DNA from: Strigamia acuminata
Lineage: Eukaryota; Arthropoda; Chilopoda; Geophilomorpha; Linotaeniidae
Assembly: GCA_949358305.1 (NCBI GenBank)
Contig: OX442322.1
Location: 2,604,001 to 2,668,000 of the forward strand
Reading direction: 5' to 3'
DNA length: 64,000 nucleotides
Position numbers and translations under genes: made by a program. The notes under the pieces are model-generated. The model saw only the letters and a program-made list of their open reading frames with translations, was not told the DNA's origin and did not search any database. Shown here in pieces: positions 9,259 through 52,772 of this stretch; the stretch's first letter is position 1; each line of letters starts with the position of its first letter.

Positions 9259-10524
9259 AAGGCAATTCGAACTGACCGGGGCGGTGAGTTCATTTCTAAT
9301 GAATTTACTGATTATCTGCGCAAAAGCGGGATTCAGACACAACGCACGAACCCTGCAAGCCCCCAAATGAACGGCACGGCTGAGCAAATTAACCGAACTA
9401 TGGCCGACTTTATGCGGGCAACGCTGGACGAAACGCGTCTACCCGAGGAATTATGGGCCGAAATTGCAGTTTCGTTTTCGTACATCAAGAACCGCTGCCC
9501 ACATTCCCGTATTAAGAATGAAGTGCCGTATATCCTATGGCGACAGCGTGCTCTCTCCGTTCGGCATTTGCGCAGACTAGGATCTAAATGTTGGGTCCAT
9601 TATACCGCGCCTGGACGCAACAAATTGGCGCCACGCGCATGGGAAGGATTTTTGGTCGGCTATGCGGTGGGAACTCGAGGATATCGAGTTTGGAACCCCG
9701 TCGACAACAAAGTCGTGGAGTCGATCCACGTGAAAATTGACGAACGACAGTCCTATCGTCGCTCTCAACGTGCTTCCCAACCGACATTCGAAGAGTCTTT
9801 CCAACCCGAACCTCGAACATCTTCCCTGCCACCATCTCAAGTCAAGTTCAATGACACAATCCAGTATGTGCCATGGTCGGCAGGTTCTGATTCGGATGAT
9901 CCAGACTCGACAGACTACGACTCCGACGATTCAGCACCTCCACGCTTGCCTCCGCCAGGTATTCAGTCCCCTCCACCTGGTAGACAATCTCCCGTACTCG
10001 GAGCAGAAGCGATGCCATTGCTCCTGCAAATGCCAGCATTGGAAACTACGTTACCATCAGATTTGACCCAAGATGCTTCCCTCGGCACTACACCGACGGG
10101 GTCTCCTCTGGACTCTTCGCCCGGCTCTCCTACGAGGCACGTATCGACAAGGAGAGGTTCCGCGACTGCACGTCCCACGGCAGAACCAGTAATCGTTACT
10201 ACAGGCGCCACATCGTACAAATGGCGCCCCGTGGGAAGCAATAATCCGTGCAGCAACTGGCGACGAGAGGAGCACCTATGCAAAGATCAAGTTCCGGGCC
10301 AAATTAAAATCGATGTCTATTATTTCCCGAAACCTGGTGTACGTCTGCGATCTAAACCAGATATTCAGGCATATTGTGATAAAGAAGGGATTCTTTATGA
10401 CGAGGATTTATTCTTTTTCGGGAACATCGAACACCAATTACCAGTCGCTCCGGCACTCCGTCACCGAGCTCATTTTTGCCGTCGAGAACCAAGGTCGTAC
10501 GCAGAGGCTGTCAAGTTTCCGGAT
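9256..10524 (+). pseudogene. Element B integrase C-part with MBD-like module
   Basis: After the frameshift the integrase resumes with AIRTDRGGEF (second Asp) and QMNGTAEQINRT (the Glu). The integrase C-terminal block WEGFLVGYAVGTRGYRVWNP follows, then an acidic, proline-rich linker. At 10258-10377 is the MBD-like block: NWRREEHL, DVYYFPKPG, RLRSKPDIQAYC. The first arginine of the MBD signature is Cys here. The next segment (DEDLFFFGN...SYAEAVKFPDA) is conserved with D, then the frame runs into the LTR of element C at 10525. Confidence 0.85.
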
Positions 10525-14347: not shown

Positions 14348-16144
14348 TCAAGCACTTAAAATACTTAAATCAACTAGGAAACGATTACAAAATTGTACAA
14401 GATCGTTTTTGTCAACGGATTTCGTAAAGATATCCGCAAAGTTACATTTTGTCCCTACATGTGTGATTTGAAGGTTATCTCTCCTTACAAGCTCCCGAAT
14501 AAAGTGGTACCGCACATCTATGTGTTTAGTTTTCCGATTTTCCACATTGGATCTCGTAAAGTCAACCGTCAAAATATTATCACACAAAACGTGGTGATGA
14601 AATTCATCCGCCAACTCGGGAACAATTTCATAAAGAACTCGCACGATCCATATGTAGTCCTTGACTGTTTCAGTAAGGGCCACATACTCCGCTTCCATTG
14701 TCGATAATGTGACGTTTCGTTGTTTGAAGGTCCTCCAGTAAATAGGCGAACTTCCCAGTGTTACTAGAGTTCCTCCAATGGAAATTCTGTCGTCTCGATT
14801 ATTTGCATAGTCGAAGTCACTGTATCCAACGACTTCGACTCGATCATTCGAAAATAGCATTAGTCCAAAGTTCTTGGTCGTCCTCAGATAGCTGAGTAAA
14901 TCCAGCAATGCGATCCAATGGTCCCATCCTGGATTGGACTGGAATTGACTCAAGATATTGACAGCATAGGTGATATCAGGTCTTGTCCTCGAACTAATGA
15001 ACGCCAATCATCCAAGCAGATTCCTGTATGGTATCCCTTCCATGATTTTAAAATCTTCAATCGTACTCGGACATTGTTGCTTTGTGAGGATGGTGGATTT
15101 TATCATCGGCTGCAACCTTATCTTCACTAATTTCAGATGGTCCTCGAATTTCAGTAAGACTTTGTTGACATACGATTTTTGATGTAAAACCATCTCTTGT
15201 CCGTAGGGATAGAATTCAACTCCTAGTAATTTTCTGGTCTGTCCTAGGATGACCAAATCAAACTGTGTTTTGATCATGTCAAGTACGTGTATTGCGTCTT
15301 CATATTTCTTGCCAAATACAACGATGTCATCGACGTACACGATTAAATACGCAGTATTTCCGTACTTGTAGACGCAATTGCACCAGTTGACATGTTGCAG
15401 TCCAAGCTTTAAAAGGGTGTCTTCTAATTCTATTCCCCATTCTCGTCCCGATTGATGTAGTCCATATATTGCACGCAGGAGTCTGCAAACGTAGTTCTCT
15501 TTGCCTGGGCAGACAAATCCTTTTGGTTGACGCATATATATAGTCTTATGCAGTTTTGCGTAAAGATACGCGCATTTGACATCAGCCTGGACGTAGGACC
15601 ATTTCAGCATGCATACCAATAGCGTGAACATGAAGCGTACTATGGAGAAGTCGACTGCAGGTGAAAAAGTTTCTTCGTACGACTCGCCATAGACTTGTGA
15701 AAAGCCTTGTGCTACGAGTCTTGCTTTGTATCGTGCAATCTCCAGTTTGTCGTTCTGTTTGACTCTGTAGATCCACTTGCATCCTATTATCTTGGTGTCG
15801 GATGGTGGTGGAACCAATTCCCACACTTCTCATTCATGCATCGTATCTATTTCGTCATGCATCGCTTGATTCCATTCCTTCTTCTCCGGTAAATTGGCTA
15901 TTTGTTCAAAACGAGTAGGAATGCAAACATCGAGATGATTCGCTTCAAAACTGAGAGTTGGCTCATCAAGGTCCAAATCGACATCACCCGTTGTTACATT
16001 TGACTCAGAAGGCTTCTTCTTTCTTTTGTCTTCAAAAAGATGTTCTGGAACGCAAAAATTGTGATCGGCACAATAACGTTTGACGTCTGGTATTGAGCGT
16101 AACTTCGGTTTATCGTATCCCACGATCGTATACAGAGTACTCAT
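14348..16144 (-). pseudogene. Element F linker, RT and RNase H
   Basis: Segments: 16144-15830 (linker ending in EWNQAMHDEIDTMHE, then TGA), 15826-15008 (RT with ARYKARLVAQGF, ADVKCAYLYAKL and YLIVYVDDIVVFG, ending in TGA where E has Cys), 15007-14348 (RNase H with GYSDFDYANN, LSTMEAEYVAL and CNFADIFTKS). A frameshift near 16130 separates this from the upstream frame. Relative to E, the stops are single substitutions. F is coding-dead but structurally complete. Confidence 0.85.
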
Positions 16145-18836
16145 AGTCTTTGTGTCCAGTAGGTCTTGTCTTTTCGGTTTTTCTCCAAACTAGCGCAGGT
16201 ATAGTTGGAACTAAATTCAAAATATCTCCGCCGGGTTGTGGTATGTTGTCCTGCAACTCTACTCTTGTTTCAGCTCCTGGTATGTTGGGTTTAAGTTCAG
16301 GAAGTCTTGTTTGCAATTTAGCATTCGGCAATCTAAATTTGAGTTTTACTTCAGGCTGTTCTTGTTGTTGAGGCTCTTTCTTCTTGATTGGTTGTGGTGG
16401 AGGTAGCGGTGGCCTGATATCTTCGTCGGAATAATATTGACGATCCTCATTTTCTAGGTTGTCGTTTAAATTGTCAATATAGGTGGTATATTTTTCCGGT
16501 AGGCCCAGCACACCTTCAACTCCGCGCTTGCTTTCCACAAATTTAACATCGCTGGTCTCGATCACTTTGGAAAATTCTGGCAGCCATACTCGATATCCTT
16601 TTGTGATCCTTGAATATCCCAGCATGATTCCATATATTCCTTTGTTATCTATCTTGCCATCTCGAATCCTCTTCTGTACGAAGCACAAACTCCCAATTTT
16701 TCTCAAATGTCGAAGCGATGGTTTTCGACCATAATATAATTCCATGGGTGTCTTGTTCGAGTTCAGTTTGGCAATTCTATTCCTAAGATAGTTGAAAGTA
16801 AGGATTGCTTCACCCCAAAAACGGTGTTCCAACTGCGCATCATAAATAAGGGCTCGCATCCCATTTGCCAAAGTCTGGTTTAATCTTTCAGAAACGCCGT
16901 TCTGGGCAGGCGTATACGCGTTGGTCCGCTCGTGGGCAATCCCTTGTTGTTCCAAATACTGTCCAAATTTGTTAGAACAGAATTCCATTCCGTTATCTGT
17001 TTTAATTGCGAGAATCTGCTTCCCAAGCAGTCGCTCTATGCGTTTCGCATGTTTACAAAACAAGCCGAACACTTCATCTTTCCTCTTCATTAGGTAAACT
17101 GATGAATAACGCAAATAGTCATCAGTAATGGTGAGGAAATACTTGTTTCCTGAGAGCGTTTCTGTTGAAAAAGCTCCGCATACATCCATATGCAAAAGTT
17201 CCAGAGGTTGCTTTGATCTTATTCCTGGAATGGACTTGTGAGAAACTGATTTCTTCTTGGCCAGGTCGCACACGTCGCATTGAGTTATTGGCACATTCAA
17301 AGTGGGCAATCCAATTACCGCATCCCCTTTGCTCATCGCTTGTACACTAGGAAAGTGAATGTGTCCTAAACGCTCGTGCCAAAGCCTTGCTTCTTCTGGA
17401 TTGGATGTAGTTTTAGTTGGTGCAATTGACGGTTGTGTTTGCTGTTCGCCAACATTTGCTTTCCTGTTTTGCTTCTGTTTCAACTTCTCAATATCGGGTT
17501 TCTGGTCACTTGTCTTAATATAATAAAGCCTATCCTTCTTTTCCGCTTGCATTAATTGTCTTTGCCACTGCGGATCGTAAACTTTGACAATTCCAGAGCC
17601 TATTGCAACCTTGCATCTCGCTTCATCGATGCACGGCCCCGACATCAAGTTTCGTCTCAAATCTGGCGCGTAATAAACCTTCTTTAAGGTTATCGGAATC
17701 GTTTCCTTTCCCACAACACACATCACGCAGACATCACCAACTCCTTGTATTTGAATTAATGTCTTTTTGTCTGCTTGGCTAATTGTCCCAGTGGTTTGTT
17801 TAAAGTTGAAGAATTGTTCTTTTTTCTTACAGAAATGTCCAGTGGCCCCGGTGTCGTATATCCAACAATTGTTGGCCATACTGCACTGTAACATCTCCTC
17901 CTTGTCCAGTTCGGTCAGAAAGCCAACATCCATCATATTGGCATCCAGTTCTTCAACACTGCTCGTGTTTAGATTGTTGTTTGGCAGGAGCTGCACTGTG
18001 CAGTCTCTGGCCCAGTGTCCTGGTTGGTTGCACTGAAAACACGGCCCCCGTCCTGATTATCCGGTTGGATTCCCTCTAAAATTTCTCGTGTTTTTGTTTC
18101 CTCGATAATTTGATCGTCCTCCCTTCTGTCCGCCTTGATTTCTTCTATTATTCTGGTTGTTGGTTCCGTGTTGTTGGAATTTTGGCGAATTGTCACCACT
18201 CTTCGAGTTGATTGAGCTTGGTCCCATGCTGAAGGCATCTGTGATCGGCCCCTGGCCTGAATCCCTTTGCTGCTGTGCCAAGCGCCCTTCTTCGGCGACT
18301 AATTCTGCTTCGACCTTCTCTAAAGTGAAGTTTATGTCCTCCCATCTGTAGATACTTTGGACGATCGATTGGTACTCCTGTGGTAAGTATCGTATGAGTT
18401 GGAAGGCCTGATATAAATCTTCTAATTTGTGTTTCACATCGGCGAGCTTCTTCGCCGCATTGCGTATTTTCGCCGCGAAAACTCCAATTGTTTCAGTTGT
18501 CGGATCATATTTGAGACTGAAGAATTCATCTAGTAGTCGAATGATCCGTGCTCGAGAGACTGGTTCAAAATTCGCCTTGGCGTCTTCAGTTCCGCTGAGC
18601 AATTCGTGATATTGCTCCTCTATAGAATAGTAAATTAAACTGAACGCTCTGCCTTTTCGCAATTTGTAATCCGAGCGATCACGCCAAGACGCTCCGAGTG
18701 CCAATGCCTCTTCAGTTTCATCCGTGAAACCCTAGCAGCCGTGGTGCATTAAAAGTACTTTGATCTGCTGTTTCCACGCGTCATAGTTCTCTCTGTTGAG
18801 TGAGGCGATTTTTCTCTCTGGTTTGTCCGTATCCAT
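16110..18836 (-). pseudogene. Element F gag, protease and integrase
   Basis: The ATG at 18836 begins MDTDKPERKIASLN. An in-frame TAG replaces Trp after LLMHHGC (about 18735). Another stop replaces Ser just before the zinc knuckle CFQCNQPGHWARDC (18059). An in-frame loss of about 8 residues relative to E lies after EDAK. The frame then encodes protease WIYDTGATGHFC, YYAPDLRRNLMSG, pre-integrase LWHERLGHIH, CDVCDLAKKK, and integrase LLHMDVCGAF, IKTDNGMEF and AQNGVSERLNQT. A divergent MBD-like region lies at about 16185-16068. Confidence 0.85.
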
Positions 18837-19990: not shown

Positions 19991-20968
19991 CATCCAATTT
20001 AATGTGACGACCAATAACACATAAAACAGGCGCACCAACACAAAATTCACAACGGGGCTGAAACATTCGTCAAAATTGATCCCCTCCCGTTGAGAAAAGC
20101 CTTGAGCTACTAATCGGCTTCGGTAACGAAATTGTTCTCCTGCCTCGGCTGACCGCTTTAATTTGTAGATCCACCGATTGCCGACTGGTTTAACATCAGT
20201 GGGACAGGGAACCTCTTCAAAAACCTCCCGCACTCGGAGAGTTGAGATTTCGTCCTCCATTGATGCTTTCCATTCCTCGCTGTGCGGCCCACTAACTGCT
20301 TCTCCGTAAGTGGCAGGTTCCAAGCACACATGATGACATTCATGAAACATGTCCTCATCTGTTTTCTCCTGGTCAATTTCGTCTTCGGTTAAGTCATGTC
20401 TTCTCGGTATTAAAAGATCAACTTGTGCATGTGCACGAGTAAAATCAAAAGCTGCAGGATCAAAAACTTCATGTCTGCTTTCATGTCATCTGCAGACATC
20501 AGACATCGATCGGCAACGTTTTCCATCTGGGGAATAATAATAAATGTCCACCATTCCTGCCGTTTTGCCTTTCTTACGCCTGAAAACCTTCTTCGTCCAT
20601 CCAGGTGGAGCAGCAATATACGTGGAGGTCGAGGGTAATGGCTCAGATCTTGTGTTAATGGTCCTTGAAGTAGACTTCCTTTTAACACGTTTACCCTTAA
20701 CCTCCGATGATGACAGTGGTTTGGGAGATCCCAGAAAATCAGGAACATCCTCCCCTGTATTGTCTGTAGTAGCAAGGTCCTCCCAAGATGTGGACTTGGA
20801 TGACTTAGCCGATTCAGCAGTGGAAAATCACTATCCGAAGATGACGAACTGTAACTGAACACCGGCATCTTGGCTGAAGTCGGCACAAAAGAGGGTATTA
20901 ATGCTCTCGATACTTGCTCTTTAGCCCCAGCCCAAATTGAATTTTCATCTACTACTACAGCCTTACTG
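19991..20968 (-). pseudogene. Element C linker with the best-preserved MBD-like module, and RT N-part
   Basis: Downstream of the integrase C-terminus the frame shifts at about 20980 and again at about 20830. The Ser/Lys-rich linker then leads to the block at 20608-20492: PPGWTKKVFRRKKG, TAGMVDIYYYSPDGKR, CRSMSDVC. The Trp, the DxYY strand, the PDG turn and two arginines spaced -10 and +12 around the Asp all match the MBD pattern. A TGA at 20488 follows. The frame from 20350 has YGEAVSGPHSEEWKASMEDE and RT start RYRSRLVAQGFSQREGINF, interrupted by element F at 19990. Confidence 0.8.
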
Positions 20969-26156: not shown

Positions 26157-26536
26157 TTTGACATTAGGGTTGCACCGAATATTAAAAAAGCCGAATACCG
26201 AATATTCGGAACCGAATACAGTGGCCGAATATTCGGTATTCGGCCATTTTATGTCATCGTTATGTCAAATTTGCTATAAAAATTCAGGTAAAATCGCAAA
26301 TTTTAATGTAAAAATGGCTTTTTAAATGTAAAAACCGCAATTTTTATGTAAAAATGACATTTTAAATGTAAAAGCGTCATTTTAAACGTAAAAACGTCAC
26401 TTTTTCACCGTAAAAACGACTTTTTCCCCATATAATGACTTCGTAAAGCCAAAATTAAAATTATTTTGTCAAAATTGCATTTTTTCATTGAAAAATATAA
26501 AGTTTTCTGATGAAATGCAATTTATATAGTAGAAAC

Positions 26537-27112
26537 TGTTGGTCTAAAAGACCATTTTATATGTCGATGAGACATAGAATCTTATTATGTTACATTCTAA
26601 TCATTTATTCCGATATTTATTTTATATCAAATCCCAATTGTCTTTATATAATTTGATATAATGATTTAATGTTTATTTACATCTCAAATAGCTTATTTCC
26701 AATGTTTACAATTGTATTTGATTTTTAAGCATGGAGTATCATGCTTTATTTAGCCACAATGTTTAATTCACTTTAATTTTATGTCATGTGTTTACAATTA
26801 CCGACACAAGGTGTAGCAATGTACACTTTTCCACTTGTCAACATGGCGCCCACCTCGAGAGCGAGCTGCTCCGCCATTTTTCATTAATTCTGGACTCAAT
26901 TGTTAAGTATGTTATTATTAAACCTTATTTTATAGTTTTAACAAGTGTTAAGTCTTGTTTTTTCGGCATATAAGCGCTTTCTGCGCGGCCGTCGTTCGTT
27001 TCCTTGCAAAACGTCGTCGACACGTTCGTGCGTGCAGCACGACGCCATCTTGGCTATAATTCGCTTCCACGTTTCGGTTCACGCCGAATTTGCGACGCTC
27101 TCCTCTGCTACA
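26537..27112 (+). repeat. Element D 5' LTR with promoter
   Basis: TGTTGGTC...CTGCTACA. A TATAAG motif at 26969-26974 sits in the block CGGCATATAAGCGCTTTCTGCGCGGCCG. The same block occurs in the 3' LTR of element B, which supports a core promoter role. Confidence 0.9.
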
Positions 27113-27114
27113 AT

Positions 27115-27132
27115 TGGTAGCAGAGGATGGTT
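27115..27132 (+). promoter_or_regulatory. Element D primer-binding site
   Basis: TGGTAGCAGAGGATGGTT, two bases after the LTR. It is an 18-base perfect complement to the 3' end of animal initiator tRNA-Met as I know that sequence. Confidence 0.9.
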
Positions 27133-28183
27133 GGTTTCCCTGCATTGTACAACCTTTGTTTGCCTTAATTATCGCCGAAAATTCCGCGAATTTCGCGAAT
27201 TTCGCGGCGACTTTATCTTTTTCAGAGTTATCGCCGATTCCCGACGCTTAGACGACGATTTAACGATTCGACGACGTCGGAACGACGTTCACCATTCGTC
27301 CCGTTCAATTATCGCCGAGTATTCTGCGAATTTTCGCGAATTTTGCGGCGATTTTCATATTTATAGGTTTCGACGAATTACGGCCCGATTTCCGTGCTCA
27401 GAACGTCGCCGACGTATCACCGACATTACAAAGCAGCCCACGCTGCTTTCCACTCGATTCTGCGTTTAATTCCGACCAGAATTCCGCGGTCTCGCGAATT
27501 TTGGGTTGAATTTTCAATTTATTTTCAGTTTTCGACGGATTTTCGTCTCGACGACGATTTTTCGACGATTCTTCAACGGAAACGAGACGTTTCTTGCTTT
27601 ATACACCCCGGCGTGTATATAGTATCGGCAAACTCACGACGATTTATTTGTTTTCAACGCATTTTTGTGAAGAGCCTCATTTTATGAGACGAATTTGGAT
27701 TTTCGAATCCAAATTGCGCTTTTTATCCGGTTTTTTCGAGAAAAACCGAGCCGTGTTTTCTTATCGCACGAGGTCGCAACCGCGCCAGATTCATCAATTT
27801 CTCCTTCTTGTCGCAATAACCTTTGTTAGTTGTTTAAGTGGGTATTTTGGTTGGGTCATTATTAGAATCGCAATAGCCCTTCGGACAAGTCTGTCCAAGC
27901 TATTGTTGTATTCTAGAGTAAGGGTGAGCCCTGCGCCACCTAGTATTCCCGCGATCCCAGGAGATCTCAAAGGACACTAGGGGGACACTTACTCTAGGTT
28001 ATCAGCTGATTGTAGCATCGGCTCCCAATTTGTGGTTTTCCGCCTCGAAAGTGCTTCGATTTGTGATCGTGATTGTGCCATTGGATTGTGCAGTGCTACG
28101 AGTGTCTTCTACTACGCCCGTACCACTCTCTACGCCTTTGAGTTTTTCGCGGTGTGGGAAATCTACGAATTTTTCACGTCAGG
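27133..28183 (+). other. Element D leader with internal repeats
   Basis: A long leader of about 1050 bases. The block AATTATCGCCGA...GCGAATTTCGCG(AATTTCG)CGGCGA occurs at about 27170-27215 and again at about 27305-27350, with a weaker third copy near 27480. CGCGAATTTCGCGGCGA is partly self-complementary. TTTCAG-like acceptor strings occur, but no intron was demonstrated. Confidence 0.6.
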
Positions 28184-31100
28184 ATGTCAAAATACGCGGA
28201 ACCAACGGTTGGAAAATGTCCGATGTTGGGCATAAATAACTATGAATCATGGCGTCGTGCCATGTGCATGCTCCTAAAGTCAGAAGGCCTTTGGAGGCAT
28301 GTAACCGAAGAAAAAGAAGCGGAATATTTATTGACATTGACCCCGAAGGAGACTGAAAAATACAAGTTGAAGAAGGATAAAGCGTTGGGACACATTTATT
28401 GCCACGTGAGCGAGGCTAAACGCTCCACATTGGACAACGCCAATACTCCGAAGGAAGTTTGGGACATTTTGTCAAAAATCTTTGCTCCCAGCTCTCTGGC
28501 TCGTCAAGCAGCCATGAGATGGCAATTTTTGGGCTTACACCTCGAGCCAAACGAGGACATGGTCGATTTTGTGGGTCGCGTTGACCTGCACGTACGTCAA
28601 CTACGAGATATGCAGGAAGAAGTATCGGACAAGCATCATGCTTACCAGTACTTGAATCGCCTACCTCCGGAATATGCCCAGGCCACATTCGCCATATATC
28701 ACTGGCCGATAGCGAATTTTACACCGGCTAAAGTGTCCGAACAGTTAATATCAGAGTATCTTCGCCTCAAATCAGTTGGTTTACACAATGTTTCATCATC
28801 AGCTCACGCGTCTGCACAGAATCCACAACAATCTCGTCAAGGTTCACGTCCACGTCGTCCGTTATCGCAGATCAAGTGCTTCAACTGTCATGAGATGGGC
28901 CATTACGCGAACAAGTGCCCATATCCCAAACGTGACGACAGGAACCAGCAACCGGCAGCTTCCCTTCAACGCTCTCGAAGTAAGAGCAAGAAGCGCGGCA
29001 AGAACTCGGCTCCCAAACCCGAGGACAATCGCCTGAGAGGAAGTTCTCATCCGGTTCGCAACGCAGTGTTTTTCGTGAATGCTCCGCAAATTATTGAATG
29101 TCCCGTTGCCCATCTGATGCAGTCACATGAATGGATAGTCGACTGCGGCGCCACGGACCATGTTTCCCACGTACGATCGTGGTTTTCCGATTTTTCGAAC
29201 ATTGTCCCTTTTGACATCGAGCTGGGACAAGGGAAATCACAGGTGACTGGCCGAGGAAATGTTCAATTGCAGACTCGTGTGGACAATTCTCATTGCAATG
29301 TGACGTTGACGAATGTGCTTTATGCACCCAATTTTGAAGCAAATCTAATCTCTGTCTCAAGGATCGATAAAACAAATCACCACATCCATACCTACAACGG
29401 GGAGATTAATATTTATAAATCAAACATCGCTGAAACGATTCTAAGAGCAAAGGAGAAAGGAGGATTGTATTATCTGGATGGATTGTGTACTAATCCAACG
29501 GTTGCTACCTCATCTTCGCCAATAATTCAACAATCACCCGTACAGACATTTGTCACGACGGAAGTTGACTTTGTGAATATTCCAAAGAAGCAGAAGACTA
29601 AGCAACAGAACATGTCGGATTTTAGGATTCAAATGCCGCCATTGCCTGCAACTGAGACCCCGGTGTCAAATCCGGTTGCCACGAATCTTATACTCCAATT
29701 ACAACCTTTGCCTATCCACACCACTTCTCCAATCCATTCATATGCTAATGCCCTTCAGCATATCCCAAGTAGTCCTCCACCTGTCACATCTCCTTCTCCT
29801 ATCCAATCCGCTGGTAATCCTTCTCAATCACAAAAGAAGATTATTGCTAATCCTGTCCAAACACCAAAGAAAGTTCTTGCTTCTGTCAAAGATGCAACCG
29901 GTTTGTGGCATAGTCGCCTTGGACATTTACACACCAACGCGATGCGGTTGTTAGCCAATAACGACAACGTATATGGACTTGAACCGGCGGAAGTGTCGCA
30001 AGAATTAGCGTGCAACGACTGCCGTCTTGCGAAATCCATAAGGGCTTCTCACAAGCCGGATTTACATCCTTCAACATCTCAGCCCCTCGATCTCTTACAC
30101 ATGGACGTGTGGGGACCGTATCCGGTTCCTTCATTTGGGGGTGCTCGCTTCGTTTTCACCGTCATTGACGACGCGACGCGATACACCTGGATCACGCCTT
30201 TAGCTCAAAAATCCCAAGTCTTTTCGTGCTTCAAGGAAATCGTCGCCAGGGTCGAGCGCGTTGCGAACACGCGCATTAAAGCCATTCGATCTGATAGGGG
30301 CGGCGAATTCATGTCCAATGAATTTCAACAGTACTTAAAAGAAAAGGGGATCCAGGGGCAGCGAACAAATCCGTCAAGCCCCCAAATGAACGGCACAGCC
30401 GAAAGAATTAACCGGACAATGGTTGACCACATTAGAGCTGTTTTACAGGAGACACAACTTCCGGCCGGTTTATGGGCTGAACTCGCTGTCAACTTCGCGT
30501 ACATCAAAAATCGAAGTCCACATTCCCGTTTGAATAACCAAGTGCCATACATACTTTGGCGTCAACGTGCCCTTTCTTTGCGTCACTTGAGGAAAATTGG
30601 ATCCAAGTGCTGGGTGCACTTCACTGCACCGGGACGCAGAAAGCTCGACCCCCGTGCTTGGGAAGGTTTCCTCGTAGGCTACGCCACAGGTACACGTGGT
30701 TACCGCATATGGAATCCTATGGACAATAGCGTAACGGAATCAACTCACGTACGCATTGATGAACATCAATCTTATAAAAGGACATTGAGAAGTCAAAATG
30801 GTCATCGCAATCAAATTTTCGAGGAACCCGATGTTAGCCAACAACAACATGTGTCATTCGACGATAACGTCCACTATTTGGATTGGCCAAAAGCCGACAC
30901 TGACGGGGATTCATCGAGTACATCCGACGACGATGACGATGATGATGATGGAAATGGATCAGTTTCGAAATCGATATCCATCTCACTGGTGCACATTTCC
31001 CCGCTTAACACACCTGAACGTCAGTTGGTAGAAGCATGCGCACTGGCATTACCGGATTCTGCGAGTTTGGGACGATCAGCATCATATCCAATCCTTTATC

Positions 31101-33187
31101 AAGAGGAAAGACAGGATACGGATGAAGATGTTGGACAGATTGTTGATGAGGCAATTCAACCGGACGCGGCAGAGTTGCAACAGATTCAGTCTCAACACGT
31201 CTCACCGGAAACGTCTCAAACTAGTTCTCCTGGGCTTTCACCGCCTGGCTCACCAACTCGTTTCGTCACAACGCGCAGAAGAGACGGCCGAAATGTTTTG
31301 CAACATATGATGCCAATATTTGATCAAGGAGCTTTATCACCATTGCCTCCTGGCCCTACTCATGTTGCAGCACCGTCAGCCGGGAAAACGTCTTTCTTTT
31401 GGCGTTATGTTGGCGGTGATACAGTCTTCAGACGATGGATTCGGGAGGAACATCTCCGAAAAGATCAACGCCCTGGATGTATAGACACCGATGTCTATTA
31501 TTTCCCGGAACCTAATCTCCGATTACGTTCGAGACGGGACGTTGAAGAATTCTGCACGATGAATAATCTCCCCTACGATCCAGAACTTTTCTTTTTCGGC
31601 AATATGGAGCACACACTGCCTACGATTCCCGGTCCTCGACATGCCGCTCATCTTTGCCGTACGGAACCATCATCGTACGCGGAAATTCCGAAGTTTCAAG
31701 ATGCTCCGAAATGGCGTGAAGCCATTGACGAAGAATTGGGAACGTTCAAAGAAAGGCAGATATACGTCGAAGTTCCGAGGCCACCCGAGACTACAGTATT
31801 AGGCTGTAAATGGATCTTCAAGCTTAAGTCGGATGCGGCTGGAACAATAACTCGCTATCGTGCCCGACTCGTCGCACAAGGCTTCCGCCAAACCATCGGG
31901 GTTGATTACGACGAGGTTTTTAGCCCAGTCGTGAATTTTGTCTTAATCCGACTGTTCTTCTGTCTTCTAGTCGTCCTCAGAGGATGGAAAGATGCTCACC
32001 TCGACGTCAAATGTGCATACCTGTATGGGGACCTGAAGCACAAGATATACATGCGCATCCCCGCAGGTGCAGCCTGTACGAATCCCAACAACGTATGGCT
32101 GCTTATCAAATCTCTCTATGGTCTTCACCAGAGTGGGAGACAATGGTACGAGAAATTGGATGAGACACTTCGAGCCCTCGGTTTCCGGAAGATGCCTGCG
32201 TGCAATTGTGTGTACATTTACGGCAATTGTGCAGTCATGCTGGTGTACGTTGATGACATCGTTTTGTTCTACGCTTCCGACACCGTTTTAGCCCGGATCA
32301 TTCGACTCATCTCGTCCAAATTCGACATTGTTAACCTTGGTCCCATCACGAAGCTATTGGGCATCGAGTTCATTCGAGACGCTGGTCGAACCTTCATCAC
32401 GCAACGCGCCTACATTGCAAAGCTCGTTAAGAAGTTCGAGGTCTCTATCAATCGCCTCGTGAAGGTTCTCGTCACACCCGGGACGACACTCGTGAAGGGA
32501 TCAACCGATAATCTACCGGACTTTCCTTACCGATCCCTCATCGGCTCACTTTTATTCCTCGCGTTGAGAACACGCCCCGACATCTTATTTTCGGTCATTT
32601 CGCTGAGCCAATTCAACACATGTTACGACAAGACGCATATCCGAGCCCTCCTCCAAGTCCTTCAATATGTGGCCAACACTATCGACTATCGCATCGAACT
32701 TTCGGGCTGTAATTCTAGCCAACTGTGGGCTTTTACGGATGCGTCATGGGCAAGCGAAGCAGCCACGTCTCTAAGTTTCGGTGGCTATATCAACTTTATC
32801 GGAAATGTGCCAATTGGCTGGTCGTGCCGAAAACAGTCAACGGTCGCACGTTCCACCATGGAAGCGGAATTTATCGCCCTGGTGGAATGTGTGAAGGAAT
32901 CCTTCTGGCTCGACAACATTTACACCGAATTTCCGATTCTCGACAGGCAATCCCGACCAATAATCTATTCCGACGCTCTCGCGGCTATCCAGTTTACTTC
33001 GAATGACGTGGAGAATTCCAAGACCAAACATATCCGCGTCAAATATCATTGGCTACGAGAGTGGTATACGGCGGGATGTTTCGACCTTCATAAAGTATCC
33101 GGTGAACAGAACGTTGCGGACATTTTTACCAAATGGCTTAGTTCCGAACGTTTGAAGTCGTTAATCTCCAAGATCTTCCGATTTTGA
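28184..33187 (+). CDS. Element D Gag-Pol polyprotein, 1667 residues
   Basis: The ATG at 28184 (MSKYAEPT) is preferred to the in-frame upstream GTG because element B starts at the matching place. Domains in order: Gag (GINNYESWRRAM, LGLHLEPNEDMVDFVGRVD); zinc knuckle C232, C235, H240, C245; protease VDCGATDH with Asp320; pre-integrase LWHSRLGHLH from L574; CNDC at 610-613; integrase catalytic D641, D704, E740 (DX62DX35E); C-terminal block WEGFLVGYATGTRGYRIWNP; acidic linker with a D run; MBD-like module W1085 to about C1126; RT with YVDD at 1355-1358; RNase H D1519, E1560, D1597; ADIFTKWL near the end. Gag assembles the particle, and the Pol enzymes process, copy and integrate the element. No stop or frameshift. 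The Cys in the protease site is unusual but shared with B. Confidence 0.95.
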   Translation: MSKYAEPTVGKCPMLGINNYESWRRAMCMLLKSEGLWRHVTEEKEAEYLLTLTPKETEKYKLKKDKALGHIYCHVSEAKRSTLDNANTPKEVWDILSKIFAPSSLARQAAMRWQFLGLHLEPNEDMVDFVGRVDLHVRQLRDMQEEVSDKHHAYQYLNRLPPEYAQATFAIYHWPIANFTPAKVSEQLISEYLRLKSVGLHNVSSSAHASAQNPQQSRQGSRPRRPLSQIKCFNCHEMGHYANKCPYPKRDDRNQQPAASLQRSRSKSKKRGKNSAPKPEDNRLRGSSHPVRNAVFFVNAPQIIECPVAHLMQSHEWIVDCGATDHVSHVRSWFSDFSNIVPFDIELGQGKSQVTGRGNVQLQTRVDNSHCNVTLTNVLYAPNFEANLISVSRIDKTNHHIHTYNGEINIYKSNIAETILRAKEKGGLYYLDGLCTNPTVATSSSPIIQQSPVQTFVTTEVDFVNIPKKQKTKQQNMSDFRIQMPPLPATETPVSNPVATNLILQLQPLPIHTTSPIHSYANALQHIPSSPPPVTSPSPIQSAGNPSQSQKKIIANPVQTPKKVLASVKDATGLWHSRLGHLHTNAMRLLANNDNVYGLEPAEVSQELACNDCRLAKSIRASHKPDLHPSTSQPLDLLHMDVWGPYPVPSFGGARFVFTVIDDATRYTWITPLAQKSQVFSCFKEIVARVERVANTRIKAIRSDRGGEFMSNEFQQYLKEKGIQGQRTNPSSPQMNGTAERINRTMVDHIRAVLQETQLPAGLWAELAVNFAYIKNRSPHSRLNNQVPYILWRQRALSLRHLRKIGSKCWVHFTAPGRRKLDPRAWEGFLVGYATGTRGYRIWNPMDNSVTESTHVRIDEHQSYKRTLRSQNGHRNQIFEEPDVSQQQHVSFDDNVHYLDWPKADTDGDSSSTSDDDDDDDDGNGSVSKSISISLVHISPLNTPERQLVEACALALPDSASLGRSASYPILYQEERQDTDEDVGQIVDEAIQPDAAELQQIQSQHVSPETSQTSSPGLSPPGSPTRFVTTRRRDGRNVLQHMMPIFDQGALSPLPPGPTHVAAPSAGKTSFFWRYVGGDTVFRRWIREEHLRKDQRPGCIDTDVYYFPEPNLRLRSRRDVEEFCTMNNLPYDPELFFFGNMEHTLPTIPGPRHAAHLCRTEPSSYAEIPKFQDAPKWREAIDEELGTFKERQIYVEVPRPPETTVLGCKWIFKLKSDAAGTITRYRARLVAQGFRQTIGVDYDEVFSPVVNFVLIRLFFCLLVVLRGWKDAHLDVKCAYLYGDLKHKIYMRIPAGAACTNPNNVWLLIKSLYGLHQSGRQWYEKLDETLRALGFRKMPACNCVYIYGNCAVMLVYVDDIVLFYASDTVLARIIRLISSKFDIVNLGPITKLLGIEFIRDAGRTFITQRAYIAKLVKKFEVSINRLVKVLVTPGTTLVKGSTDNLPDFPYRSLIGSLLFLALRTRPDILFSVISLSQFNTCYDKTHIRALLQVLQYVANTIDYRIELSGCNSSQLWAFTDASWASEAATSLSFGGYINFIGNVPIGWSCRKQSTVARSTMEAEFIALVECVKESFWLDNIYTEFPILDRQSRPIIYSDALAAIQFTSNDVENSKTKHIRVKYHWLREWYTAGCFDLHKVSGEQNVADIFTKWLSSERLKSLISKIFRF

Positions 33188-33395: not shown

Positions 33396-33405
33396 GAAAG
33401 GGGGA
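33396..33405 (+). promoter_or_regulatory. Element D polypurine tract
   Basis: GAAAGGGGGA lies two bases before the 3' LTR and is the expected plus-strand DNA primer site. Confidence 0.85.
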
Positions 33406-33407
33406 AT

Positions 33408-33983
33408 TGCTGGTCTAAAAGACCATTTTATATGTCGATGAGACATAGAATCTTATTATGTTACATTCTAATCATTTATTCCGATATTTATTTTATATCA
33501 AATCCCAATTGTCTTTATATAATTTGATATAATGATTTAATGTTTATTTACATCTCAAATAGCTTATTTCCAATGTTTACAATTGTATTTGATTTTTAAG
33601 CATGGAGTATCATGCTTTATTTAGCCACAATGTTTAATTCACTTTAATTTTATGTCATGTGTTTACAATTACCGACACAAGGTGTCGCAATGTACACTTT
33701 TCCACTTGTCAACATGGCGCCCACCTCGAGAGCGAGCTGCTCCGCCATTTTTCATTAATTCTGGACTCAATTGTTAAGTATGTTATTATTAAACCTTATT
33801 TTATAGTTTTAACAAGTGTTAAGTCTTGTCTTTTCGGCATATAAGCGCTTTCTGCGCGGCCGTCGTTCGTTTCCTTGCAAAACGTTGTCGACACGTTCGT
33901 GCGTGCAGCACGACGCCATCTTGGCTTTAATTCGCTTCCACGTTTCGGTTCATGCCGAATTTGCGCCGCTCTCCTCTGCTACA
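33408..33983 (+). repeat. Element D 3' LTR
   Basis: 576 bp, TGCTGGTC...CTGCTACA, followed by TSD GAAAC. It differs from the 5' LTR at seven positions by eye, six of them in the second half. Confidence 0.92.
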
Positions 33984-34635: not shown

Positions 34636-35795
34636 CTAGAAAAGATGTTCAGGAACACGAAGATTGTGATCTTTGCAGTAACGTTTTACTTCTGGTATTG
34701 AACGCAATTTTGGTTTGTCGTATCCCTCGATGGTGTACTCAATATCTCTCTGTCCAGTTGGTCTTGCCTTTTCAGTCTTCTTCCAAACGAGCGCGGGTAT
34801 CGTTGCAACTGGATTTAAAGGTTCTTGTCCTGGTTGTAGTAAAAGATTTGGCACGTTGTGTTGCAACTTTTCTTCCGGCAGTCTGAATTTCAGTTTAACT
34901 GGGGGCAATTCTTCTTCCTCTCTCTTCTTAATTGGTTGCAGCGGAGGTAGCGGTGGTCTCACGTCCTCATCCGAGTAGTACTGGCGATCATTGTTGTCGT
35001 CCAGGTTGTCTCCCAGGTTGTCAATATATGTCGTATATTTCTCGGGTAGCCCCAGCACGCCTTCAACTCCGCGCCTGCTCTCAACAAATTTAACGTCATT
35101 GGTTTCGATCACTTTGGAAAATTCTGGCAACCAGATTCTGTATCCTTTCGTTATCCGGGAATAGCCGAGCATAATCCCATGCAGTCCTTTGTTGTCTATT
35201 TTGCCATCTCGAATTTTCTTCTGTACGAAACATAAACTCCCAAACTTCCTCAAGTGTCTTAGTGATGGTTTACGACCATAGTATAGCTCCATTGGTGTTT
35301 TGTCCGAATTTAGTTTGGCAATTCGATTTCTGAGATAGTTGAAAGTGAGGATTGCTTCACCCCAAAATCGATGCTCCAATTTTGCGTCGTAAACAAGGGC
35401 TCGCATCCCATTGGCCAACGTTTGGTTTAATCTTTCCGACACGCCATTTTGGGCAGGTGTGTACGCGTTGGTCCTCTCGTGAATGATGCCAAGTCCCTCG
35501 AGATATTCTCCAAACTTATTTGAACAAAATTCCATTCCATTGTCCGTCCAAATTGCTAAAACTGATTTTCCTAACAATCGTTCTATTCGTTTGACATGTT
35601 TTTGAAAAATGTCAAATACCTCGTCCTTTCTCTTCATGAGGTACACTGTTGAATAGCGGGAAAAATCGTCTGTAATGGTAAGGAAATACCTATTTCCTGA
35701 TAGTGTCGCTGTGTTAAAAGCTCCACATACATCCATGTGCAGAAGTTGTAACGGTTCCTTCGACCGAATTCCAGGCAGCGATTTGTGAGTCCAAT
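34636..35795 (-). pseudogene. Element E integrase and divergent MBD-like region
   Basis: The frame begins at the deletion junction with KSLPGIRSKEPLQLLHMDVCGAF (split here between HKSLPGIRSK and LLHMDVCGAF). It continues with FLTITDDFSRYSTVYLMKR, WTDNGMEF, AQNGVSERLNQT and FWGEAILTFNYLRNRI, then the C-terminal block GIMLGYSRITKGYRIWLPEF. A proline-rich linker follows, then the region 34785-34677: VWKKTEKARPTGQRDIEY and GYDKPKLRSIPEVKRYC, which resembles a shortened MBD-like block. D, D and E of the catalytic triad are present. Confidence 0.85.
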
Positions 35796-37337
35796 TACTG
35801 CATTTCGCTTGCTCATTTCTTGTACGCTTGAAAAGTAGATGTGTCCAAGTCGCTCATGCCACAACCTCGCTTCCTCTGGACTGGATGCTTTTTTAGTTGA
35901 CTTAGTTGGTTCCTCGTTTTGTTGTTCGCCAGTATTCACTTTGTTGTTTTGTTTCTGTCTCAATTTTTCAAAGTCAGGTTTCTGGTCACTCGTTTTAATG
36001 TAGTAAAGTCTGTCCTTTTTCACAGCTTCCATTAATTGTCTCCTCCACTGTGGATCATAAACCTTGACTATACCGCAGCCAATTGCGACCTTGCATCTCG
36101 CCTTGTCAATACACGGTCCCGACATTAGATTTCTTCTCAGATCCGGTGCGTAGTAAACTTTTGTTAAAGTTATTGGAATTGTTTCTTTCCCTACGACGCA
36201 CATCACGCAGACATCGCCGACGCCTTGGATTTGAATTAATGTCTTCTTATCTGCTTGGCTGATGGTTCCAGTGGTTTGTTTGAAATTGAAAAACTGATCC
36301 TTTTCTTTACAAAAATGTCCTGTTGCCCCGGTGTCGTATATCCAACAGTTGTTCGCTGTACTGCACTGCAGCATCTCTTCTTTGTCCCACTCTGTTAAAA
36401 ATCCGACATCCATCATATTCAGGTCCAATTCTTCAACGCTATTAGTGTTTAAGTTGCTATTCGATGGCAATTGCGTTGTGCAATCTCTCGCCCAATGGCC
36501 CGGTTGATTGCAGCGGAAACACGGCCCCCGTCCTGATGATCCGGTCGCATTTCCGCGAAAATTCACTGAATTTTTTCCGCCTCTGTAGTTTGATCGGCCA
36601 CCCTTTTGTCCGCCTCCGTATCCACGATTGTTCTGGCTATTGTTTCCCTGCTGTTGGAATTTCGGCGTGTTTCCAGCGCTCTTTGTGTTGGAATTACTTC
36701 CTCCAGTGCTGAAGGCATCTATTATCTGTTCCTGACCCGAATCCCGTCTCTGTTGTGCAAGTCTGCCTTCTTCTGCCACCAATTCGGCCTCGACCTTTTC
36801 CAATGTAAAGTTTATGTCCTCCCATCGGTAAATGGCTTGAACAATTGACTGGTACTCTTGCGGGAGATATCTTATGAGTTGAAACGCCTGATACAAGTCT
36901 TCCAACTTGTGTTTCACATCCGCAAGCTTCTTTGCAGCATTTCTGATTTTTGCAGCGAAGACACCAATTGTTTCTGTTGTCGGTTCGTACTTCAAACTGA
37001 AGAATTCATCCAATAACCGAATGATCTGTGCTCTGGAAACTGGTTCAAAGTTTGTTTTTAGCGTATTCCACGCTATCTTCGCGTCTTCGGTTCCACTGAG
37101 CAGTTCGTGGTACTGCTCCTCGATGGAATAATAAATTAGGCTGAATGCTCGTCCCTTCCGCAGTTTGTAGTCCGAGCGGTCGCGCCACGACGCGCCTGGT
37201 GCCAGTGCCTCCTCAGTTCCGTCAGTGAAGCCCCAACATCCGTGGTGCATGAGGAGAATCTTGATTTGCTGCTTCCAGCTATCATAATTCAGTCTATTCA
37301 GTAGCGTGATTTTCCGCTCTAATTTGTCTGTGTCCAT
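35796..37337 (-). pseudogene. Element E Gag and protease
   Basis: The ATG at 37337 opens MDTDKLERKITLLN. Gag continues with YHELLSGTEDAK, LIRYLPQEYQSIV and a Gly/Asn/Gln-rich tail, then zinc knuckle C273, C276, H281, C286. Protease YDTGATGHFC has Asp335. YYAPDLRRNLMSG and pre-integrase LWHERLGHIYFSSVQEMSKR follow. The frame breaks at about 35796: about 65 bases present in F, which encode the integrase CX2C zinc ligands (CDVC), are deleted, and the frame shifts. Confidence 0.88.
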
Positions 37338-41842: not shown

Positions 41843-43133
41843 ATGGCAGTGAAGCATCTGCGTGCAATTGGTTTTTTATGTTTTGTACATATCCCTAAAC
41901 CTAAAAGAGATTGGAAACTTGACTCAAGAGCGTGGAAAGGCATACTTGTTGGGTATGCATTTACTACAAGGGGCTACCGGGTTTGGAATCCCATTACAAA
42001 CGAGGTGATTGAAACTAAACATTTAGTAATTGATGAGTCCAAAAACTGGAAGTCCTTTAATACAGTGGACACCAATGTTCAACAACCGGAACAAGAGACA
42101 AACGGTTACGATTCGGATGAGAGTGGGACATATCAACAAGAATTCAAAGAAACTGTCCCAACTACAACACCTCCAGGTTTTCCACCTGTAAAGCATAAAG
42201 CACCAGTACTCCTTGCTCAGGTTCCTCCTCAAGCAGAACCTGTGGCAAAGGTTCCAATCCCTACACAACCTGTGCAGGGTGGTGCAAAGGTGAAAAAGCC
42301 TCGAATTGCAACACAAACTAGTGATGGAGATGGATGGGAAAGGGAACAAGTAACCAGGCAAGGGGGTGTTACTGCAGAGAGAATTGATGTGCTTTATTAT
42401 GCACCAGATGGTACGGGACCTTTAAAAACAAAGAAGGATATCAAAACTTTCTGCAGAGCAAATAGGATTTTCTACAATGCTTTGAAATTTGATTTTACCC
42501 CCGCGAAAAAGCCCATTAATACAATTGAACAATCTTCTGATGAGGAAACAGAAGCAATGGAAACAGTTCTCACTGCAACAAAGCCCATTAGTGTTTATTG
42601 TGCAATTAGACAACCAAAAACCTACAAAGAGGCAACATCCTCACCTCAATCTAAAGAGTGGACAGGGGCGATGGAAAAGGAGATTGAGACATTGCAAAAA
42701 AGAGAAGTTTACACAGAAGTTCCACGACCAAAGGCCAAGGTCTTGGGTCATAAATGGGTTTACAAATTGAAGACAGATGAGGATGGGAATGTTGCGAGAA
42801 TCGTGACCCAAGGTTTCAGACAGAAACAGGGTGTTGATTACACAGAGTTATTTTCGCCCGTTGTCAACTTTACATTACTTCGGTTATTTTTCTGTTTGTT
42901 GGTGATTCTGCGTTTATTTGGACGTAAAATGTGCGTACCTTTATGGTAAATTGGACTGCCCGATTCACATGGAAATTCCGCAAGAATTCAAAACGCCAGG
43001 AACAGATAATGTTTGGTACTTAACAAAAGCATTGTACGGATTGCATCAATCTCATAGAATGTGGTTTGAGGAGTTAAATACCACTCTACTGGGTTTGGGT
43101 TTCACTAAAGTCATTGGATGCAATTGTGTATAC
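41843..43133 (+). pseudogene. Element I integrase C-part, MBD-like module, RT N-part
   Basis: Reads VKHLRAIGFLCFVHIPKPKR, then WKGILVGYAFTTRGYRVWNP. A Pro/Lys-rich linker follows, then the MBD-like block 42332-42454: GWEREQVTRQGG, DVLYYAPDGTGP and KTKKDIKTFC. RT starts with SKEWTGAMEKEIETLQKREV, LGHKWVYKLKTD and QGFRQKQGVDYTELF. A short deletion lies before the QGF motif. A frameshift near 42908 leads to DVKCAYLYGKLDCP, GLHQSHRMWFEEL and CNCVY, where element J begins. Confidence 0.85.
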
Positions 43134-47021: not shown

Positions 47022-48149
47022 CTACTCACATGATTTGACATGTTGTCTAATGTCTTTGTAAATTCCCGGCCAATAGTACTTTTGCCTAATGGTTTCGAAC
47101 ATCTTCTCAATACCAAAATGACCCGCTCCTTCCCGGTTGTGCTCATGTATTAGCACTGCTGGTACCATGGCTTCTGGCACAACCAAAATCGAAATCACCT
47201 CCTCATGAATACTTCTAGCCAAATAAAGCATGCCATCATCTGTCAGATAGTATAAGTCCCATGTGGGAAACTTGCTCTTGAATTGAGCCGTCTCGCCCTT
47301 GGCTGCCCTAATCAAAAATTCCGATTTGGGGTCGACTGATTGCGCCTCAACTATTCTCTGCGGAATCCAATCGATCAACAACATATCCTTTGAATTTAGA
47401 ACGCTGATACCGTTCGTTTCACTCCCACCGTCCTGTGGTAGCAAACGTGACAGAAAGTCCGCTTTATTTTGTGGCCCTGGCTTGTACACAATGTCGTAAT
47501 CATACTCTTGGAGTTTCATACTCCACCTAGTGAACTGTGCTTTTGCATGCGAGTTTTGCAAAAGGAAGGTGAGGGGTGCATGATCCGTGATAAGTGTAAA
47601 TTTTCTTCCCATCAAATAATAGGTGAAATGCTTCACACCAAAAACGCATCCCATTGCTTCCAAATGCACTGCTGGGTAGCATTCTTCTGTCCTGTTTAGT
47701 CGCCTACTTGCAAATGCTATGGGGTGCATCCTACTATTTACTTGTTGTTTTAAAATAGCTCCCAACCCCTGTCCACTAGCATATGTTTCTAGAAAGAATT
47801 TCTTTTTCCAGTCTGGTAAAACCAGGATTGGCCCCTTGATCAGTTGTCCCTTTAATGTCTCATAGGCTAACTGTTGAGCTTCTCCGCCGTCGAACACTAT
47901 ATCCTTCTTGAGTAAATTGGTAAGGGGTGAAGCTATAGTTGAAAAATTCTTTATAAACCGTCTATAGTAACCTGTCATCCCCAAATAAATCCGTACTTCT
48001 GGTACATTTCTTGGTGCTCGACACTTTTCCAGAGCTTGGACCTTGGATTCAGTTGGTCTAATTGTTCCTTCCCCAATTACATGGCCTAAATATGTCACTT
48101 CTGTCACCCCCAATTGACATTTTGGTGGCTTCAGTTTTAATTTAGCCTC
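47022..48149 (-). pseudogene. Element J RT thumb, RNase H and integrase zinc region
   Basis: From the K TSD: EAKLKLKPPKCQLGVTEV, YLGHVIGEGTIRPTESKV, LGMTGYYRRFIKNFS. RNase H has LETYASGQGLGA (Tyr where the first catalytic Asp is usual), HLEAMGCVFGVKHF and LITDHAPLTFLL. Then a linker, and the integrase zinc motif with HFGIEKMF and HVKSCE before the TAG. The Asp-to-Tyr change suggests a dead RNase H. Confidence 0.85.
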
Positions 48150-48154
48150 TCTAA

Positions 48155-48279
48155 TGAAGAGTCAAACATGCAATGGAAACTTTTTATGTATCATTCACTC
48201 ATCTTCATTTTTTAATAAACAACATTTTGTTACATAGCAACTGAATTACATTGTTAATTTGTAAGGTATTGTTCCAACA
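48155..48279 (-). repeat. Element K 3' LTR, first copy
   Basis: 125 bp, TGTTGGAACAATACC...GACTCTTCA on the minus strand. TSD TCTAA is on the J side. Confidence 0.88.
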
Positions 48280-49620
48280 TTCTCGCCTTTCATCGTAACG
48301 ATGAATCACATGGTCGCAAATTAATAAAGTCCTTTGTTGTAATCAATTTCAAACCACCAGTTGTCTTAGTCATAATACCTGCAGGCATCTCTTCTGTAGA
48401 CATATACTCTGTAGTTCCGTCTTAAACATCCTCACGTAAAAATAATACTTTCCTGTGAAAGTGTTTTGTGCGCCGATGGTACTGAGGATTTTTCGTGAGG
48501 GCAATGACGGCTTGATTATCGGAAAAGATTTGAATCGGTCTCTGAATTAAATTGGTCATTTCAAGCTGTACCAGCAATGATGTTATCCATTTCAGTTCTT
48601 TTGCTAACTCTACCATTGCCACAAATTCCGATTCACATGTTGATAAGGCAATTAGCTTTTGCTTCTTTGATTGTCAAGTGATGGTTGAATTTCCCAGCAT
48701 GGTTATAAATCTTGCATAGCTCTTTGCATCCACCGAGGCACTGTTCCGAGATGCGTCGGCGTATCCTCGCAATAATCCAAATCCTTGAGGATAAATTAAC
48801 GATAAATCAGCCGTTCCTTTTAAATAGCAAAGGATCTTCTTTGCTGCTGTCCAGTAGGCGTCATGCGGATTCTGCAACCACTGTGATAGATAGAATACCG
48901 CATAGGCAATATCTGGTCGAGTAGATTGAGCCAAGTAGGATAAGGGCCAATTAATTCTCGATAGGGCTGGTTAGTTAATGGTGATCCGGGCGGATAATTA
49001 GGGTCCTCCAACTTCTGGGATGAGTCCATGAATGCTCTACTTGTCTTTGCATCCATCATGTTGAATTTAAGCAGGACCTCAAATATATACTTGGATTGGT
49101 CCAACAGAAGTGCATATGGATGGGTCTGTCGCCTAATCCTGATGCCCAAAATCTCTGTGACTTCTCCAAGGTCGATCAAATCAACTTGCTTCATCACTTT
49201 CCCCATTATCTGATCGAGCAACTGTGTGGCGTTAGTTGCCGGCATCAAATCGTCAACATAAGTGCCCATTATTATAATGTCAGTACCATTTATCCACAGA
49301 TGAACGCATGGAACAACTATCAACTTCTTAAATCCTGCTTGTGCGAGTACCTTGTTCAGGGCTTCATGCCAAGCGCGGCCTGCCTGAAGTAAACCATAAA
49401 CTGCTTTATTTAGGAGCCAAACGTCGTTTTCTTGCCCAGGTTGGATAAAACCTTGAGGTTGCTTAATGTAAACTACCTCCTTGAGTTTCGCATGAAGGTA
49501 TGCTGATTTGACATCGTAGTGCTTGACTATAAAGCCAAACATTGCAGCAATGGCTAAGATAATTCTGATGGTGGCCAATCGAGCCACAGGAGAAAAGGAC
49601 TCTGAATAGTCAATGCCCTT
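48280..49620 (-). pseudogene. Duplicated copy of element K RNase H and part of RT
   Basis: Identical by eye to 50149-51489. Includes YVDDLM (RT), IAYAVFYLSQWLQ, LLRGYADASRN, VELAKELKWITSL and IFSDNQAVIALTKN. It is cut at 49620 by the duplication junction, where K RT is fused to J RNase H sequence. Confidence 0.9.
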
Positions 49621-50023
49621 AAAATAGCTCCCAACCCCTGTCCACTAGCATATGTTTCTAGAAAGAATTTCTTTTTCCAGTCTGGTAAAACCAGGATTGG
49701 CCCCTTGATCAGTTGTCCCTTTAATGTCTCATAGGCTAACTGTTGAGCTTCTCCGCCGTCGAACACTATATCCTTCTTGAGTAAATTGGTAAGGGGTGAA
49801 GCTATAGTTGAAAAATTCTTTATAAACCGTCTATAGTAACCTGTCATCCCCAAATAAATCCGTACTTCTGGTACATTTCTTGGTGCTCGACACTTTTCCA
49901 GAGCTTGGACCTTGGATTCAGTTGGTCTAATTGTTCCTTCCCCAATTACATGGCCTAAATATGTCACTTCTGTCACCCCCAATTGACATTTTGGTGGCTT
50001 CAGTTTTAATTTAGCCTCTCTAA

Positions 50024-50148
50024 TGAAGAGTCAAACATGCAATGGAAACTTTTTATGTATCATTCACTCATCTTCATTTTTTAATAAACAACATTTTGTT
50101 ACATAGCAACTGAATTACATTGTTAATTTGTAAGGTATTGTTCCAACA
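50024..50148 (-). repeat. Element K 3' LTR, second copy
   Basis: Same as 48155-48279, shifted by the 1869-bp duplication. Confidence 0.88.
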
Positions 50149-50289
50149 TTCTCGCCTTTCATCGTAACGATGAATCACATGGTCGCAAATTAATAAAGTC
50201 CTTTGTTGTAATCAATTTCAAACCACCAGTTGTCTTAGTCATAATACCTGCAGGCATCTCTTCTGTAGACATATACTCTGTAGTTCCGT

Positions 50290-51675
50290 CTTAAACATCC
50301 TCACGTAAAAATAATACTTTCCTGTGAAAGTGTTTTGTGCGCCGATGGTACTGAGGATTTTTCGTGAGGGCAATGACGGCTTGATTATCGGAAAAGATTT
50401 GAATCGGTCTCTGAATTAAATTGGTCATTTCAAGCTGTACCAGCAATGATGTTATCCATTTCAGTTCTTTTGCTAACTCTACCATTGCCACAAATTCCGA
50501 TTCACATGTTGATAAGGCAATTAGCTTTTGCTTCTTTGATTGTCAAGTGATGGTTGAATTTCCCAGCATGGTTATAAATCTTGCATAGCTCTTTGCATCC
50601 ACCGAGGCACTGTTCCGAGATGCGTCGGCGTATCCTCGCAATAATCCAAATCCTTGAGGATAAATTAACGATAAATCAGCCGTTCCTTTTAAATAGCAAA
50701 GGATCTTCTTTGCTGCTGTCCAGTAGGCGTCATGCGGATTCTGCAACCACTGTGATAGATAGAATACCGCATAGGCAATATCTGGTCGAGTAGATTGAGC
50801 CAAGTAGGATAAGGGCCAATTAATTCTCGATAGGGCTGGTTAGTTAATGGTGATCCGGGCGGATAATTAGGGTCCTCCAACTTCTGGGATGAGTCCATGA
50901 ATGCTCTACTTGTCTTTGCATCCATCATGTTGAATTTAAGCAGGACCTCAAATATATACTTGGATTGGTCCAACAGAAGTGCATATGGATGGGTCTGTCG
51001 CCTAATCCTGATGCCCAAAATCTCTGTGACTTCTCCAAGGTCGATCAAATCAACTTGCTTCATCACTTTCCCCATTATCTGATCGAGCAACTGTGTGGCG
51101 TTAGTTGCCGGCATCAAATCGTCAACATAAGTGCCCATTATTATAATGTCAGTACCATTTATCCACAGATGAACGCATGGAACAACTATCAACTTCTTAA
51201 ATCCTGCTTGTGCGAGTACCTTGTTCAGGGCTTCATGCCAAGCGCGGCCTGCCTGAAGTAAACCATAAACTGCTTTATTTAGGAGCCAAACGTCGTTTTC
51301 TTGCCCAGGTTGGATAAAACCTTGAGGTTGCTTAATGTAAACTACCTCCTTGAGTTTCGCATGAAGGTATGCTGATTTGACATCGTAGTGCTTGACTATA
51401 AAGCCAAACATTGCAGCAATGGCTAAGATAATTCTGATGGTGGCCAATCGAGCCACAGGAGAAAAGGACTCTGAATAGTCAATGCCCTTGTGGACATTGT
51501 AGCCTTTAACAACTAGACGGGCTTTATATTTCTTCTTGAACTTGTATACCCAGTGAGAGCCAATTACTTTTGCATCCTGTGGTCTTGTAACCAAAGTCCA
51601 AGTATTTTGTTGGGTGTGGGAGGCTATTTCCTCTTCTATAGCCCTTATCCATTGGCTCGCCTGATCAGGTGCCAC
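50290..51675 (-). pseudogene. Element K RT and RNase H
   Basis: From 51675: QASQWIRAIEEEIASHTQQ, VIGSHWVYKFKKKYKARLV, DYSESFSPVARLATIR, DVKSAYLHAKL, YGLLQAGRAWHEALN and IIMGTYVDDLMPATN (YVDD). RNase H has GYADASRNSAS and IFSDNQAVIAL. Frame changes occur near 50820 and at about 50530, between RNase H blocks. The polypeptide is interrupted. Confidence 0.85.
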
Positions 51676-52737: not shown

Positions 52738-52772
52738 TGTCTATTTATGAACTTTATCAATTGACATCCCTG

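Follow-up and report, generated by a model that had tools for sequence, protein, structure and literature searches.

A methyl-CpG-binding domain between integrase and reverse transcriptase in copia retrotransposons of Strigamia acuminata

Element D, a copia retrotransposon on chromosome Y of Strigamia acuminata (10.34 Mb; 10,344,242 bases, GC 42.5%), carries between its integrase and its reverse transcriptase a block with the layout of a methyl-CpG-binding domain (MBD), which raises the question of whether the block is such a domain and whether it could steer the placing of new copies. The window analysed, a stretch of 64,000 nucleotides, is rich in transposable elements and holds several copia elements in both orientations. 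The initial annotation knew of no described MBD in copia Pol; that such a domain is undescribed is not supported, as an arthropod family was published in 2019, and the basic discovery is thus already known. The features of element D are as follows.

26534..27112, plus strand: 5' LTR, as aligned, with TG at 26537 and GAAAC immediately before the TG
27115..27130, plus strand: primer-binding site, from the letters read in the sequence
28154..33187, plus strand: open frame, copia Gag-Pol, from the open reading frame list and Pfam on five pieces
31430..31597, plus strand: MBD-like block, divergent D-type, from profile alignment and AF2 model
33405..33983, plus strand: 3' LTR, ending in CA, then GAAAC

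Identity of the block

The domains of element D follow in the order Retrotran_gag_2, CCHC (20.3 bits, marginally under the Pfam cut-off of 20.8), Pol_BBD, gag_pre-integrs, rve, SH3, MBD block and RVT_2. The SH3-like end of the integrase (30566-30775) precedes the block and RVT_2 (31760-32452) follows it, and the Pfam pieces bear out the position between integrase and reverse transcriptase that had been given to it. The two LTRs share 98.6% identity over 579 bases (8 mismatches), the insertion is flanked by GAAAC as a 5-bp target-site duplication, and the primer-binding site is presumably complementary to the 3' end of the initiator Met tRNA. Three further elements of the window carry the block.

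10255..10389, plus strand: MBD block of element B, D-type; PF01429 E 0.0037, 17.3 bits, under the cut-off of 21
20435..20617, minus strand: MBD of element C, with one internal TGA; PF01429 49.6 bits, above the cut-off
42329..42508, plus strand: MBD of element I; PF01429 E 9.2e-8, 32 bits, above the cut-off

The MBD of C, whose frame differs from that of the open reading frame listed at the same locus (the translation of which had no Pfam match), was the second best among the 150 scored PF01429 places of the genome. Weak matches to the MBD profile were also seen on the minus strand at 15833-16189 (17.4 bits) and 34639-35853 (15.5 bits), which suggests that the window holds additional, decayed copies of MBD copia. 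The CpG observed/expected ratio of the window falls to 0.63, 0.37 and 0.41 in three consecutive 4-kb bins (48001-60000) and is 0.82-1.45 in the other thirteen; the low stretch is perhaps older sequence that lost its CpGs through germline methylation.

With the Pfam gathering score of 21 bits as the threshold for PF01429 membership, neither D nor B reached the score themselves, and the D block had no Pfam match at E 0.001. A PDB sequence search with the D block returned no MBD chain, just capping protein at E 1.3-1.5, and none of the 82 candidates from a homologue search with the D block region reached E 0.01. When a profile was built from nine Pfam-level MBDs with D and B left out, D scored 39.7 bits and B 42.0 bits, and the best of 4000 shuffled controls scored 7.7 bits. 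Judged by these profile scores, D and B are diverged descendants of the MBD lineage, linked to it through intermediate members and not themselves Pfam members. The AF2 model of the D block had a pLDDT of 81.3, and in structure searches with it ranks 1-29 (Foldseek) and 1-35 (VIA-align) were all MBD or TAM domains, the first other folds following at a far lower Foldseek probability. The D block has the MBD fold by this comparison, ahead of other folds. As read from the family profile, the predicted fold and, for C and I, Pfam itself, the block is a methyl-CpG-binding domain, and its MBD layout in D, B, C and I is real. The Y-linked copia copy L001 matched MBD4, MBD2 and MeCP2 chains alike (E 3e-10 to 2e-9), and because of this no single source of the captured host MBD was picked out.

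Genomic distribution of the copies

In the S. acuminata genome (237,517,015 bases, 157 contigs) the PF01429 profile gave 1092 candidates, and all 150 places that were scored lay above the cut-off, so that there are at least 150, about 123 of them (a hand count from the table) in open frames of at least 1300 aa. A search with the D block gave 1243 candidates, and again all 150 scored places matched, with 74-100% identity (at least 150 places); the two lists were taken as non-overlapping by eye, not by script. Copies are near-identical, and counts on them are not independent. PF00145, the DNMT-type domain, was found at five places in the genome, and in the related S. maritima one study reports that transposable element methylation was gained genome-wide, with 0.758 of 719 elements in the highly methylated group (PMC7343188).

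The outer 10% at either end of the chromosomes held 54 of the 111 autosomal MBD copies (among 150 scored; 20% expected by length) and 47 of the 82 autosomal D-type copies (among 150 scored), as counted with the length of C11 entered as 9.84 Mb (9,836,499). Among the top-scoring RVT_2 copia (n=150, 30 checked and the other 120 presumed MBD-less from score and frame length) 15 of 135 autosomal copies were terminal, under the 20% length expectation. On the Y, which makes up 4.4% of the genome, lay 12/150 MBD, 27/150 D-type, 4/150 RVT_2 copia and 28/150 gypsy copies among the listed matches. The surroundings of MBD copies had a median of 51.4 CpG per kb vs 27.9 for MBD-less copia, the only group compared (p 0.004; 20 + 20 sites hand-picked out of 150 + 150, 6.8-7.5 kb upstream of the match, one of them, L092, itself within a D-type element). 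The positions along the chromosomes, as an indirect test, do not support the suggestion of steering to methylated gene bodies: the copies gather towards the ends of the chromosomes and on the Y, in CpG-denser surroundings.

We consider it probable that a host-type MBD was captured and fixed between the integrase and reverse transcriptase of one S. acuminata copia clade, within the arthropod family of 2019. Most likely the domain remains with the integrase part of the polyprotein and would act as a tether between the integration complex and methylated, CpG-dense DNA; new copies would then land in the transposable element-rich chromosome ends and the Y and would not be spread along the arms. The domain, its place, the selection on it, its clade, its abundance and the skewed positions are observed, and binding to methylated DNA, tethering, and the MBD as the cause of the skew are what we infer. 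Of the gypsy elements, found through H2C2, 42 of 94 on autosomes were terminal by the same measure (p 0.58 vs MBD copia, Fisher; top 150), and this control weakens terminal gathering as proof of MBD targeting, which is not proven. A chromodomain was considered as the cause of the gypsy gathering, and none was present in the two gypsy pieces scanned, the ends of which may be cut. Since gypsy is as terminal as MBD copia, terminal gathering needs no MBD, and the skew contrasts two kinds of copia, not MBD elements with everything else.

Alternatively, the MBD may be real but serve another step, such as binding to methylated copies of the element itself, retention in the nucleus or contacts between proteins, with the skew arising from low purging in gene-poor heterochromatin. 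The equal terminal and Y enrichment of gypsy speaks for this account and keeps an explanation by purging or niche alive, as does the fact that D-type copies kept their skew despite a rearranged loop and that the L007 and L008 copies do without the contact tyrosine (see below); selective retention in gene-poor ends would give a similar pattern. We regard it as unlikely, as MBD-less copia with equally intact frames is not end-enriched and purging alone therefore does not hit all copia alike.

Selection, descent and the methyl-contact surface

In all four pairs compared the block had a low dN/dS (0.10, 0.06, 0.03 and 0.06; range 0.03-0.10), including 0.03 and 0.06 in the two D-type pairs, and is under purifying selection; outside the block some cells of the dN/dS table were spoilt by frame changes. 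The statement that the linkers vary while the block stays held to a moderate degree between D and B, where dN fell from 0.75 in the linker to 0.37 in the block and 0.19 in SH3, with dS saturated. For a tree of reverse transcriptases, 70 segments were reduced to 21 at 97% and 4 more were dropped, with P0002 too short. The resulting unrooted tree has 19 rows, and the 10 that carry an MBD lay on one side of a branch with support 94/93, found in 100% of 200 bootstrap trees, with one of the rows (WIN_15011) tagged as MBD from a weak 17-bit fragment upstream. The D-type falls inside the MBD side, and the grouping fits one capture; by the reverse transcriptase tree, the MBD elements share common descent.

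Two arginines, an aspartate and a tyrosine, which we take from MeCP2 and MBD1 to be the methyl-CpG contact positions, are all present in L001, L003 and P0001. D has Arg -11, Lys -10, Asp 0, Tyr +2, Arg +12 and Ser +13, and the three residues singled out in the initial annotation (Arg -11, Asp 0 and Arg +12) are thus there. The first contact arginine is displaced by one in D, and B has Cys-Lys at that spot; in the alignment the SGxTAG loop is replaced in the D-type. The contact tyrosine has given way to Val in L005, Ile in L007 and L008, which represent an abundant type, and Leu in I. The host MBD2/3 gene (L117, C5:5.733-5.735 Mb) has Phe at this position, and mammalian MBD3 carries a similar change there. 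It is conceivable, if doubtful, that the D-type and the L007/L008 type rebuilt their methyl-contact surface (the loop, and Tyr to Ile/Val) and no longer recognise symmetric methyl-CpG but a different signal, for example CpG density or another chromatin feature, while still gathering at the chromosome ends and on the Y. If true, a reader domain of a retrotransposon would be diversifying into niches within one genome.

Another possibility is that the block of D and B has decayed, either to a relic that no longer binds or to mere linker sequence, and that other subfamilies kept the MBD. The lack of a Pfam match for D, the score of B under the cut-off, the failure of D to find an MBD chain in the PDB by sequence and the replaced SGxTAG loop would all agree with such decay; we nonetheless find it very improbable in view of the low dN/dS of the D-type pairs, the Arg, Asp, Tyr, Arg and Ser retained in D, the retained predicted fold, and the identity among all the scored D-type places. 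The captured domain is seen to diversify, with one branch no longer detected by Pfam.

The idea that all copia share the block as a normal part of the integrase C-terminus or the RT finger, which its position next to both domains invites, has next to no chance of being right and was rejected: the block was found in 38/38 positive loci (a count that is partly circular) and was absent from 30/30 control copia loci checked in the same genome, which refutes the idea for the copia families examined (few of them distinct); MBD copia frames are longer, typically 1540-1740 aa vs 1290-1470 aa in control copia, and Pfam separates SH3, MBD and RVT_2.

Relation to known systems

A 2019 report by de Mendoza, Pflueger and Lister (Genome Res 29:1277) reportedly concerns, by its title, an arthropod retrotransposon family that captured a functionally active MBD. 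The copia elements in question are reportedly from Strigamia maritima and further arthropods, and are reported to bind, and to accumulate in, CpG-dense methylated DNA. The elements described here are likewise arthropod copia with a captured MBD in Pol and a Gag-Pol order, and S. maritima is of the same genus; they differ in the host species and in the D-type with its diverged loop, and are placed in that family by domain order and host. No other papers on MBD-copia were found in the open-licence literature. No description was found there of the rebuilt loop of the D-type or of the loss of the tyrosine in L005, L007, L008 and I, although the 2019 paper may cover either.

Chromoviruses, gypsy elements with a chromodomain (Gao et al. 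2008, by title), similarly carry a chromatin reader in the Pol of an LTR element, next to or near the integrase. The parallel that the initial annotation drew with them would seem a fair analogy. Chromoviruses differ in domain, superfamily and ligand, presumably a histone mark, and the S. acuminata MBD sits between integrase and reverse transcriptase in copia. Copia elements have also taken up another kind of DNA-methylation protein, cytosine methyltransferases (de Mendoza et al. 2018); these are writers and not readers, and the hosts are other ones, streptophytes and dinoflagellates (PMC12344493). The MBD of the host MBD2/3 gene is homologous to that of the copia elements, but is split by an intron and followed by MBDa and MBD_C, whereas the copia MBD lies in one open frame.

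In this chromosome-level genome, MBD-carrying and MBD-less copia stand side by side with many open copies each, and steering by a captured methylation reader is therefore directly testable through a comparison of families. Given the 2019 report, the S. acuminata elements add to a known kind, to which S. acuminata as host and the diverged D-type are new.
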